Assembly (NCBI GenBank): GCA_030913685.1
Contig: CP133187.1
Coordinates: forward strand, 2,608,001-2,672,000
From: Oscillospiraceae bacterium MB24-C1
Lineage (GTDB): Bacteria > Bacillota > Clostridia > Oscillospirales > Ruminococcaceae
Direction of reading: 5' to 3'
Length of the DNA: 64,000 bases
The notes under the pieces are model-generated. The model searched no databases and had not been told where the DNA came from. It saw only the letters and a program-made list of their open reading frames with translations. Shown here piece after piece: positions 8,367-10,497 of the stretch. The number at the start of each line of letters is the position of its first letter. Position 1 is the first letter of the stretch. A program made the position numbers and the translations under genes.

Positions 8367-8879
8367 CTACCGGCTGGTCGAATAAAGCGGCCTGCCTGCG
8401 TTGAGGTCGTCCCTGATTTGGCGGGCGAGATAATCACTAATCTCATCGAGGGATCTGCGATCCTGCGTGACGCCCTTGAAATTATTGGTTACATTGAGCG
8501 TGATCGCCTCATTCTTGCTGTTGCCGGATTGCATGTGCCAGTATTGTGCGGTTTGCGCCTGTATATCGGCGAGCTGAAGCTGCTGTTGCTGCCAGCCGTC
8601 AAGGGCTGCGGTGGGATGGGGTTGGTTGGTCTGCCATGCGTTAAATGTAGAGGTGGGCTGGTAGAGGTGGAGATTAGAGGCGCCATAAATATTATCGATA
8701 CTGCTTAAAGTTGCAGTGGCCTGTGAGATTTTATCTCGGGCTTTCTTTCGCTTTTCATATTTTTTCCGAAACAGTTCTCCGCGTTGAGTGGGGGGTTCTC
8801 CCTCGTAGATGAACGGGTTAGATGCCGCCAAGATGCTGTCCATGGTGTTTGCCTGAGCAGTTGCCTGATCAATATCCAA
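8367..8879 (-). pseudogene. Tape-measure-like frame, C-terminal part behind an in-frame stop
   Basis: 170 codons from a possible TTG at 8879. The frame continues unbroken from the gene ending at 8901: the only interruption is the TAA at 8901-8903, and the codons after it (VEAGQLVLDIDQATAQ) read on as normal protein. The region is Gln-rich, with a charged stretch (RKKYEKRKKARDK). Its end, NVTNNFKGVTQDRRSL followed by DEISDYLARQI, resembles the C-terminus of clostridial phage tail tape-measure proteins. That resemblance is from memory and not from a search. No good ribosome binding site precedes 8879, so this is more likely the tail of an interrupted gene than a separate one. The alternative is a real small structural protein started at TTG. 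Confidence 0.5.
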
Positions 8880-8900
8880 TACTAATTGACCTGCTTCAAC

Positions 8901-9284
8901 TTAATACTGCAAAAAAGCAAAGGCGCCAACAAAAGCAGCCATAATAGCTAAGGCACTAGCTACTACGGGGTGTTTTGCAGCTTGCAGCAAAGCAAGCGTC
9001 GATACTGAATTTATAATCTCTTTCACCTTGTAATCTGTAAGCACATCTGCATACGATAAAATGCCCGCAACATCTGCCGCTGTGCCAAAAACAGTCCCAA
9101 AGGTGTCAGAATCGTCTGAGTTCTCAGAGCTTGCCAGAGTTCCTAAAGAATCTATCAGTTTACTTTGTGTTTGTTTAAGTTGTTCAAGCGCCAGCGTGGT
9201 TTTTCCCTGCGCTTCGCAAAGAGATGACAAAAGTCGTAGAGGGTTATCTTCGCTTAATAAAGCTAAAGCGTTATCTTTTCCCAC
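8901..9284 (-). CDS. Short hydrophobic protein, N-terminal part of an interrupted tape-measure-like frame
   Basis: 127 residues from GTG at 9284, which follows AAGGAAGTGA. An in-frame GTG at 9293 overlaps that site. The N-terminal half is rich in Leu and Gln with likely coiled-coil spacing (KTTLALEQLKQTQSKLIDSL). An acidic Ser/Asp patch follows, and the last 20 residues are a membrane-like helix (ALAIMAAFVGAFAFLQ) ending at TAA. A central hydrophobic segment followed by a charged region is normal in tape-measure proteins, and the same frame resumes directly after the stop. Position downstream of a tail assembly chaperone fits a tape-measure gene, but the combined length of about 300 codons is very short for one. 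Confidence 0.5.
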   Translation of the reverse strand: MGKDNALALLSEDNPLRLLSSLCEAQGKTTLALEQLKQTQSKLIDSLGTLASSENSDDSDTFGTVFGTAADVAGILSYADVLTDYKVKEIINSVSTLALLQAAKHPVVASALAIMAAFVGAFAFLQY

Positions 9285-9402
9285 AAAAATCACTTCCTTG
9301 TTTAATTATTTTTGGTGCGTCATAATTTGGAAAAGTATAAAAAATTATTTACTTTTAAAACTAGTTATTTTAAAATTGGCAGGAGGAAATTTATAATAAA
9401 GG

Positions 9403-9540
9403 TTATTGCCACAGCAGCTTTAAAATCTCACTGAGCAACGCCACCGTGCCGACGGACATGAGCGGCATTTCTTTGGCGGTCTGAAAAAGCAGCTCGCACA
9501 GGGCTTCGGTGATCTCCGGTTTCATCGTTTTATTTTCCAT
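9403..9540 (-). CDS. Small 45-residue protein in the tail locus
   Basis: ATG at 9540 follows AAAGGAAATAAACG, a good ribosome binding site, and the frame runs 45 codons to TAA at 9403-9405. The protein begins MENKTMKPEITEALCELL and ends in an amphipathic Leu-rich helix. It lies between the chaperone frameshift product and the tape-measure-like gene, where contractile-tail loci often carry a small open frame. I do not recognise a family. Confidence 0.5.
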   Translation of the reverse strand: MENKTMKPEITEALCELLFQTAKEMPLMSVGTVALLSEILKLLWQ

Positions 9541-9630: not shown

Positions 9631-9828
9631 TCAGTTTCGTCTGCGTGGTGCCAGATTCCGCTGCCGCTCGGCCAGTTTTTGATTTTCCTCCTGCTCAAGC
9701 TGTTCACAGGCATAAAAAAACGCCTGTTCCTCGCGAGAATAGGCCGCGAATTCACTTGGGCGTATGTGGTGCTTGCGCAGGGCAAGATAGGCTAAAAATG
9801 CCGTTTCGTCCTTGCCCTGCTTAATCAG
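9631..9828 (-). CDS. -1 frame extension of the tail assembly chaperone (product of programmed frameshifting)
   Basis: No start codon opens this frame, but it reads 65 codons without interruption from the shift site to TGA at 9631-9633, as a plausible charged, soluble protein (begins LIKQGKDETAFLAYLALRKH, continues through a Glu/Gln-rich helix, ends in Arg). It starts exactly at an A AAA AAC slippery heptamer (9828-9834) that overlaps the chaperone's stop region. A 7 nt spacer and a perfect 10 bp stem (arms 9811-9820 and 9777-9786) follow. Lambda G/GT and many other tailed phages make a chaperone fusion by exactly this device. The fusion here would be about 190-197 residues. Confidence 0.75.
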   Translation of the reverse strand: MIKQGKDETAFLAYLALRKHHIRPSEFAAYSREEQAFFYACEQLEQEENQKLAERQRNLAPRRRN

Positions 9829-9834
9829 TTTTTT
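9777..9834 (-). promoter_or_regulatory. Programmed -1 ribosomal frameshift signal
   Basis: On the minus strand the codons GTA AAA AAC TGA place the canonical heptamer A AAA AAC in the right phase two codons before the stop. Seven bases later GCAGGGCAAG begins a stem that pairs perfectly over 10 bp with CTTGCCCTGC. The 24 nt loop includes a further GGC/GCC step. Slippery site, spacer and stem match the known architecture of -1 frameshift elements. Confidence 0.8.
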
Positions 9835-10223
9835 ACTTCGGCCGCCAGTTCGGCAAGGCTGGTGCCCAGTGCGTTGTGCCGCTGGTACATCACGATCAAT
9901 CGGGTGAGCTCCGCGTCGGTGGTCAAGGCCTTCAGTGCCTCGGCGGGCTCCAGAATAGTTCTACCCTCACGCTGCGAAAGCTCTTTGAGCAGTTCGGCAT
10001 CTCTCAGGTTCGGGTACACCAGCGAACAGGCGATGACCGTCAGCAGAATGTCGCTCTGGCTGCGTCCCTCATACTGCTTTTGCAGCTCACAGCTTTCCAT
10101 GGATGAAAGTTGGCGCAGCTCCCATTCGACGGGTGCGCTGCTTTCATCGCAAAACGCTTCGGATAGCACAAATTTCAGATTCTCCTTACGGGTGGGGTTC
10201 AAAAATGCTTTGAGATTTTTCGT
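9825..10223 (-). CDS. XkdN-like phage tail assembly chaperone (zero-frame product), apparent ACG start
   Basis: Resembles the XkdN/PBSX-type tail assembly chaperone, which helps load tape-measure and tube proteins during contractile tail assembly. The N-terminal KNLKAFLNP followed by KENLKFVLSEAF and PVEWELRQLSSME is the family pattern, and the C-terminal half is a helical Leu-rich region (AELLKELSQREG through LIVMYQRHNALG). A perfect AAAGGAG site (10232-10238) lies 8 nt before ACG at 10221-10223, exactly where ATG is expected. The next usable start is TTG at 10202, which would remove conserved residues. The frame ends at TGA 9825 within the frameshift signal. No tube, sheath or baseplate genes are nearby. 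Confidence 0.65.
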   Translation of the reverse strand, partial: TKNLKAFLNPTRKENLKFVLSEAFCDESSAPVEWELRQLSSMESCELQKQYEGRSQSDILLTVIACSLVYPNLRDAELLKELSQREGRTILEPAEALKALTTDAELTRLIVMYQRHNALGTSLAELAAEVKN

Positions 10224-10497
10224 GGTTGTTTCTCCTTTAAGTTATTTTTGGATAAAAAAGCGGACGCGTTCAGAAAGCCTTTTTCCTTTGTGTCGGAAAC
10301 CTTTTGATATCTGCCGCATTTCTATACCTAGACTCTAGCATAGGTTCACAGTGGCCTTCTATGGCGTATTTCAGTGAAGGAGACAAAAAACCGCGTGTCC
10401 AAACGCCACGCCTCACACTTTTACATAAAACTTAATCTCTAAAATTGTTTTCCCCTGCATATACATGCACTAAGACGACACAGGGGAGGGCACACAT

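Follow-up and report, generated by a model that had tools for sequence, protein, structure and literature searches.

The window analysed here is a 64,000-nt stretch of the genome of Oscillospiraceae bacterium MB24-C1 (contig CP133187.1). Its minus strand carries, at 9825..10202, an XkdN/YqbN-like tail assembly chaperone gene whose 0 frame encodes a gpG-like product of 125 aa. The 0-frame product matched PF08890 (XkdN-like tail assembly chaperone) with 37.3 bits against a cut-off of 27, and phrog_389 with an E-value of 2e-12. PDB entry 3klu (YqbN of B. subtilis) was matched with an E-value of 1.7e-13 by a nine-sequence profile made from the window copy and eight relatives, each joined with its extension. 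Hits of profiles to 7udk, a designed helical repeat protein, were set aside as an effect of composition. The 0 frame ends in GTA AAA AAC TGA, so that the slippery heptamer A AAA AAC (9834..9828, minus strand) lies in codon phase directly before the stop, as had been proposed. It is followed by a 7-nt spacer, TGATTAA (9827..9821), and by a perfect 10-bp stem with the arms GCAGGGCAAG (9820..9811) and CTTGCCCTGC (9786..9777) around a 24-nt loop. The stem has 11 bp if one additional G·U pair is counted, and the predicted fold has three inner pairs within the loop. This hairpin (9777..9820, minus strand) is the presumed stimulator of slipping. The RNA fold of the element had an energy of -21.9 kcal/mol, with a z-score of -3.2 against dinucleotide shuffles. 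The -1 frame (9631..9834, minus strand), which would encode the C-terminal domain of a gpGT-like product, reads KK and then 65 codons before ending at TGA 9633..9631. The spacer, stem and loop (9827..9777) and the length of the open -1 frame thus agree with the original prediction. An Rfam scan of the element matched no family at gathering score; sR23 lay near it with an E-value of 0.014, under its cut-off, and was dismissed.

The start of the chaperone gene is damaged. A Shine-Dalgarno sequence, AAAGGAG, is intact at 10232..10238 (minus strand), and a paralogue about 86 kb away has AAAGGAG at the matching place. Upstream of the ORF the window copy reads TTAAAGGAGAAACAACC followed by ACG AAA AAT CTC, and the paralogue reads TTAAAAGGAGTAAAAATT followed by ATG AAA AAT CTC. 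The alignment thus puts ACG (10221..10223, minus strand) where the paralogue has its ATG start, suggesting that ordinary initiation at this position has most likely been lost, and by this measure the window copy is not an intact translatable gene. With standard start codons, the ORF reaches no further upstream than an internal TTG (10202), and no Shine-Dalgarno sequence was seen at the usual distance before it. The ACG could initiate weakly, or the internal TTG could be used. Apart from the lesions both frames are open, giving 190 codons in two frames. Automatic start assignment for the 47 surveyed genes described below gave ATG in 36, TTG in 6, GTG in 4 and none in 1, by a loose rule that included wrong starts and picked an internal GTG for the window copy.

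The chaperone gene has two small neighbours on the same strand. A 45-aa ORF with a Shine-Dalgarno sequence (9403..9540) matched no Pfam or PHROG family and had no relative among the compared loci, the window's own place being left out. The other neighbour, the next large frame after the chaperone gene, is a short tape-measure-like gene (8367..9284) with an in-frame TAA at 8903..8901. Its C-terminal part shared 35% identity over 88 aligned positions (E 8e-10) with a 352-aa protein of a second locus in the same genome, and its N-terminal part had no relative among the compared loci, again leaving out the window's own place. Its position and this C-terminal match are the two grounds on which it is taken as a tape measure. 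The ACG and the TAA could both be assembly errors. Two 15-nt stretches at 9301-9315 and 10237-10251, just upstream of the tape-measure-like and chaperone genes, are 87% identical, perhaps as a common leader and perhaps by chance. Together the chaperone and the tape-measure-like gene form a cassette between a YitT-family gene and spoIIID. As judged by eye, the rest of the window consists of apparently bacterial housekeeping genes, and none was identified as a head, sheath, tube or baseplate gene. An XkdN/YqbN chaperone gene would be expected to stand between genes for the tube and the tape measure, of which the window shows only a tape-measure-like candidate. The chaperone had been called an orphan. 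This holds within the window, where, mostly by eye, only the chaperone, the 45-aa ORF and the tape-measure-like gene are possibly phage-derived, but not for the genome, which holds paralogues. The original prediction had mentioned neither these paralogues, nor the ACG, nor the TAA in the tape-measure-like gene. No convincing direct repeats flank the cassette. PF08890 was absent from the contigs carrying spoIIID or a close murA in four other genomes of the same genus (G001-G004), which are fragmented assemblies; in this search for an empty site, spoIIID and the close murA lay on separate contigs in G002-G004 and were divergent in G001.

To judge the signal against chance, we compared the window with shuffled and homologous sequences. 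AAAAAAC alone is not rare, with 31 occurrences in the window against 19.6 expected. Among 237 ORFs of at least 100 aa, taken from the window and 50 kb around the second locus, four had an in-frame A AAA AAN inside the last 15 codons, and two of these four also opened into 45 or more codons in the -1 frame. These two are the tail chaperones of the window and of its paralogue. Since the ORF set includes many spurious ORFs, 2/237 is a background rate and not a gene count.

We then searched the host's family with the PF08890 profile, using 297 genomes sampled evenly from a larger group. Matches fell at 48 places spread over 34 genomes; 47 scored above the curated cut-off and one, in G030, below it. 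At 47 of the 48 places, A AAA AAN lies in frame at the stop or close to it and is accompanied by a -1 frame of 47-73 codons. The sole exception, G073:C18:2752, has neither signal nor extension. The heptamer of the 47 genes ends in C (34 genes), A (11), T (1) or G (1). In 33 genes the stop comes immediately after the heptamer; in the others the two are separated by 1 codon (3 genes), 5-8 codons (9 genes) or 18 codons (2 genes). The count leaves out copies too decayed for PF08890 detection; of three such copies, all without a signal, G010 has one (C36:23189-23443) and the host has the other two. Also outside the survey, G043 has A AAA AAC and G057 has A AAA AAA, and in G037, which lies outside the host family, chaperone and extension form a single ORF of 221 codons.

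The same arrangement was found in phages. A relative of a C. difficile phage protein was present in 39 phage records, of which 15 were examined. In 14 of these 15 loci, A AAA AAC stands at most one codon ahead of the stop and the -1 frame is open for 48-65 codons. In the fifteenth, phage EJ-1, one continuous 198-codon ORF spans both halves (L132 2300-2896), as opposed to the frameshift arrangement in its close relative MismyG (L139); the EJ-1 ORF is either a real fusion or a sequence error in an old record. No relative could be confirmed from two scans of viral contigs with single proteins, and pattern scans of viral and genome contigs gave 12 and 19 stretches. None of the 11 annotated phage records with the signal marks a join. 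In four of them (phiCDKH02, PBP180, Abouo and Osiris) the last part of the extension is annotated as a hypothetical protein of its own, with the same frame and stop, and the other seven leave the extension blank. In phiCDKH02, MissE2 and PVJ1 (L131, L135 and L137) the chaperone is annotated as 'portal protein', which looks like a propagated misannotation. The original prediction had held that homologues with a disrupted heptamer and both frames kept would refute frameshifting. None of the 48 places surveyed and none of the 15 phage loci was such a case, with the two frames kept apart, and heptamer and stem are kept in homologues. The exceptions to the signal are the single-ORF fusions of EJ-1 and G037 and the place in G073.

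To determine if the hairpin is conserved beyond its coding constraints, we scored contiguous stems starting 5-13 nt after the heptamer against synonymous-codon shuffles. For the window copy, with the -1 protein kept, the fold had a z-score of -2.1 and the stem a p-value of about 0.015. Over the 47 genes the mean stem score was 18.7 compared to 13.9 for shuffled sequences, and none of 200 shuffled sets scored as high. Reducing the set to 32 representatives (60% extension identity) gave 18.1 compared to 13.8, a mean that none of 1000 shuffled sets reached. The stem was individually significant (p < 0.05) in 17 of the 47 genes and 11 of the 32 representatives, and the mean z-score of the fold energy over the 47 genes was -1.66. 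In three ungapped groups, 92.2% (n=7), 81.1% (n=9) and 83.8% (n=10) of stem cells were paired, compared to at most 53%, 62% and 59% when the same groups were slid by 1-3 columns; these groups cover 26 of the 47 genes and were formed by spacing after the folds had been seen. The n=9 and n=10 groups are distinguished by a codon of the 3' arm (Cys versus Ala) and have pairing registers one base apart, suggesting that pairing follows the coding change, although the groups were set after this had been seen. Double changes within the groups were few and near shuffle level, so the main support for the stem is the synonymous-codon control. In the fold analysis of the 47 genes, G290, G168:C20 and G237 had the heptamer but no clear hairpin. 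These results are consistent with the downstream hairpin of the window copy being a putative stimulator of slipping.

The -1 frame encodes a conserved domain. We aligned 30 of the 47 extensions, picked by eye for diversity and including one cut short at its end, and the window extension could be aligned with the 29 others. AlphaFold2 predicted three helices for the domain with a mean pLDDT of 85. Fold searches with it gave no convincing PDB match, and matches to viral folds had E-values above 0.1. Eight PHROG families, none of them named (e.g. 10943, 20560 and 33439), matched extensions, six of them matching 6-17 of the 30. In a single comparison, the stretch FHWPPSELYPMSLTE (around FHWPPS) of the phage P2 protein E' matched the extension profile with an E-value of 3e-5, and hhalign aligned 15-17 residues of P2 E' to the profile with 5.8e-5 and a probability of 66%. 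The Pfam P2 GpE family (Phage_P2_GpE), which we take to correspond to P2 E', was matched by 1 of the 30 extensions with an E-value of 0.03. A common origin of the extension and P2 E' is a lead from these sequence matches, not proof.

The arrangement resembles known systems to differing degrees. In lambda, a low-level -1 frameshift appends a C-terminal domain to the tail chaperone gpG to give gpGT, the 0-frame product binding the tape measure and the frameshifted domain binding the tube protein, and lambda-type frameshifting is widely conserved among long-tailed phages, according to the review PMC5009743. The comparison with lambda G/GT in the original prediction stands for the anatomy of a tail-chaperone -1 frameshift but not for the family. 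The window gene belongs to the contractile-tail XkdN/YqbN family (PF08890), and lambda is thus a functional parallel, which is all that is claimed. The XkdN/YqbN chaperones of Clostridioides phage phiC2, Streptococcus phages EJ-1 and MismyG and the PBSX-like PBP180 share with the window copy both the sequence family and the -1 extension, and those of phiC2, MismyG and PBP180 have, like it, A AAA AAC 0-1 codons before the stop. Unlike these phage relatives, the window copy is not part of a tail operon, and its start codon carries a lesion. In phage P2, E/E+E' likewise involves a -1 frameshift just before a contractile-tail tape-measure gene, and the join is annotated in the P2 record; its slippery site is T TTT TTG, in contrast to A AAA AAN in the PF08890 genes. 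For an HK97-like chaperone cluster, PMC3711429 reports measured frameshifting of 6% and 7% in two genes. The XkdN-like chaperone of phiCD508 was not found in virions according to PMC11948020, as expected for a chaperone. In the literature searched, including the available parts of PMC12671070, PMC11948020, PMC3711429, PMC5009743 and PMC10885494, we found no description of frameshifting for the XkdN/YqbN family, though an earlier one may exist. The available part of PMC12671070 mentions XkdN and contains 'frameshift' only in a reference title.

The paralogue lies at 2530992-2531608 of the host genome (G000). It has a normal ATG start, the reading GCA AAA AAC TCC TAA and an extension of 63 codons. 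The second locus additionally holds two damaged chaperone copies, one truncated and one decayed (2529560 and 2533747-2534048), both without the signal. By eye and gene order, this locus (2504-2537 kb) contains terminase, portal, capsid, sheath, tube, XkdP-/XkdQ-like and lysin genes, interspersed with ordinary bacterial genes. Two of its proteins, of 366 and 352 aa, are tape-measure-like by position. No baseplate J-type gene was seen by eye past the tape-measure region, unlike in G001, G008 and G010; G001, of the same genus, has a fuller prophage with like kinds of genes, again by eye. In G010 (L033, C36), two pairs of chaperone and tape-measure-like genes lie in one module, both with intact signals.

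Several further observations concern these tail modules. In both L033 (G010 C36) and L006 (G000), chaperone and tape-measure-like genes are each present more than once within a single module. The proteins at the tape-measure position in G001, G008, G010 and the host have 203-422 aa (L031 14679-15290; L036 9437-10432; L006 5659-6759 and 12551-13609; L033 10728-11924 and 6170-7438), compared to 748 aa for the annotated tape measure of EJ-1. Five of these six short proteins were scanned, and none of the five matched a Pfam or PHROG family with an E-value below 0.002. If these proteins are tape measures, the tails would be very short. Small opposite-strand ORFs of about 60-130 aa with the consensus end YTIFYEDN adjoin the chaperone and tape-measure-like genes. 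They lie on the minus strand at L006 4906-5139, 5360-5656, 6800-7120, 7189-7500, 8282-8674 and 8675-8986 and at L036 9140-9418, and on the plus strand at L033 7384-8195 and 11942-13803. A Pfam and PHROG scan gave no convincing match for them. When a profile of ten such ORFs was run against 63 genomes, it hit 16 places in four of them. One is in G015, and the remaining 15 belong to the tail modules of G000, G008 and G010, a count that is partly circular since the model was built from these last three. Another opposite-strand ORF, L006 12139-12486, has zinc ribbons and was excluded from the profile. In G008, L036 6442-14333 is by eye a contractile-tail gene set with bacterial flanks and no capsid genes in 20 kb, possibly encoding a tailocin-like particle. 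In G057, a tail-type cluster (L037 6625-16321) adjoins mraZ/mraW-like cell-division genes, with no sheath gene seen by eye.

Collectively, these comparisons suggest that the window locus is very probably a recently decayed relic of an XkdN/PBSX-type contractile-tail prophage, whose intact relatives would frameshift by -1 on a conserved signal to make gpG-like and gpGT-like products. By comparison with these relatives, the frameshift signal looks real. In intact relatives the 0 frame would yield the gpG-like chaperone, while a minority of ribosomes, assisted by the hairpin, would slip by -1 on A AAA AAC and add a helical domain of 47-73 residues to give the gpGT-like product. By analogy with lambda, the first part would bind the tape measure and the added domain would recruit the tube protein, so that the ratio of the two products would help to build a tail of set length. 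Judged from sequence, the mechanism is the already known gpG/gpGT-type -1 frameshift and is ordinary for the PF08890 family. Given the ACG at the start position and the TAA in the gene that follows, the window copy would be expected to yield hardly any product or none, and the window chaperone is most likely no longer expressed. Recent decay would account for the survival of its frameshift element. Between the alternatives posed at the outset, recent loss or retained function, the ACG and the TAA favour recent loss.

If chance were the explanation, the slippery run, the stem and the open -1 frame would have come together in the window gene and in its relatives without serving any function. The 31 matches to AAAAAAC in the window make one such run unsurprising, but the signal is present at 47 of the 48 places in homologues and in 14 of the 15 phages, the background of 2/237 ORFs consists of two tail chaperones, and the -1 domain is a conserved protein. 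Conservation across homologues already contradicts a chance origin, to which we give next to no credence. It is also very improbable that the -1 half is mainly made as a re-initiated small protein rather than as part of a fusion. The paralogue extension does have an early in-frame ATG, PHROG families match the extension stretch alone, 4 of 11 annotated phage records give the extension end as its own small protein, and small phage proteins of similar predicted fold exist (E above 0.1). The in-phase heptamer at 47 of 48 places and the single-ORF fusions of EJ-1 and G037 argue instead for a fused product.

Two further readings concern the cassette. In one, the chaperone is still made, from the ACG or the internal TTG, and the cassette acts in trans with the distant tail module of the second locus. 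The intact Shine-Dalgarno AAAGGAG and signal, the 190 codons open in two frames apart from the start, and the sheath-, tube- and XkdP/Q-like genes kept in the genome (by order and by eye) are in keeping with retained function. We nevertheless consider it quite improbable, as the start position is ACG, the partner tape-measure-like gene has an in-frame stop, the second locus has no baseplate J-type gene visible by eye, unlike G001, G008 and G010, and the cassette was not seen at the spoIIID/murA place in the fragmented assemblies of G001-G004. In the other, which is unlikely, chaperone, signal and short tape-measure gene travel together as one cassette through duplication, exchange and dispersal, as the two pairs in G010 and the several chaperone copies and two tape-measure-like proteins of the host module might suggest, the window copy having been displaced from the module about 86 kb away and possibly serving as a store for changes of tail length. 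If this were true, one tail module could carry several length-setting pairs.

Beyond the probable relic in the window, the comparison bears on this kind of gene more widely. XkdN-type chaperone genes appear, from the loci compared here, to be two-product genes almost throughout. Their predominant heptamer is A AAA AAC (34 of the 47 host-family genes and all 14 signal-bearing phage loci), which in E. coli is much less shift-prone than A AAA AAG according to PMC5009743. The idea that absent queuosine makes AAC slippery is unsupported, as tgt is present in the host. Together, these results suggest that XkdN-type genes nearly always have a frameshifted second product in reach, which none of the 11 annotated records states.
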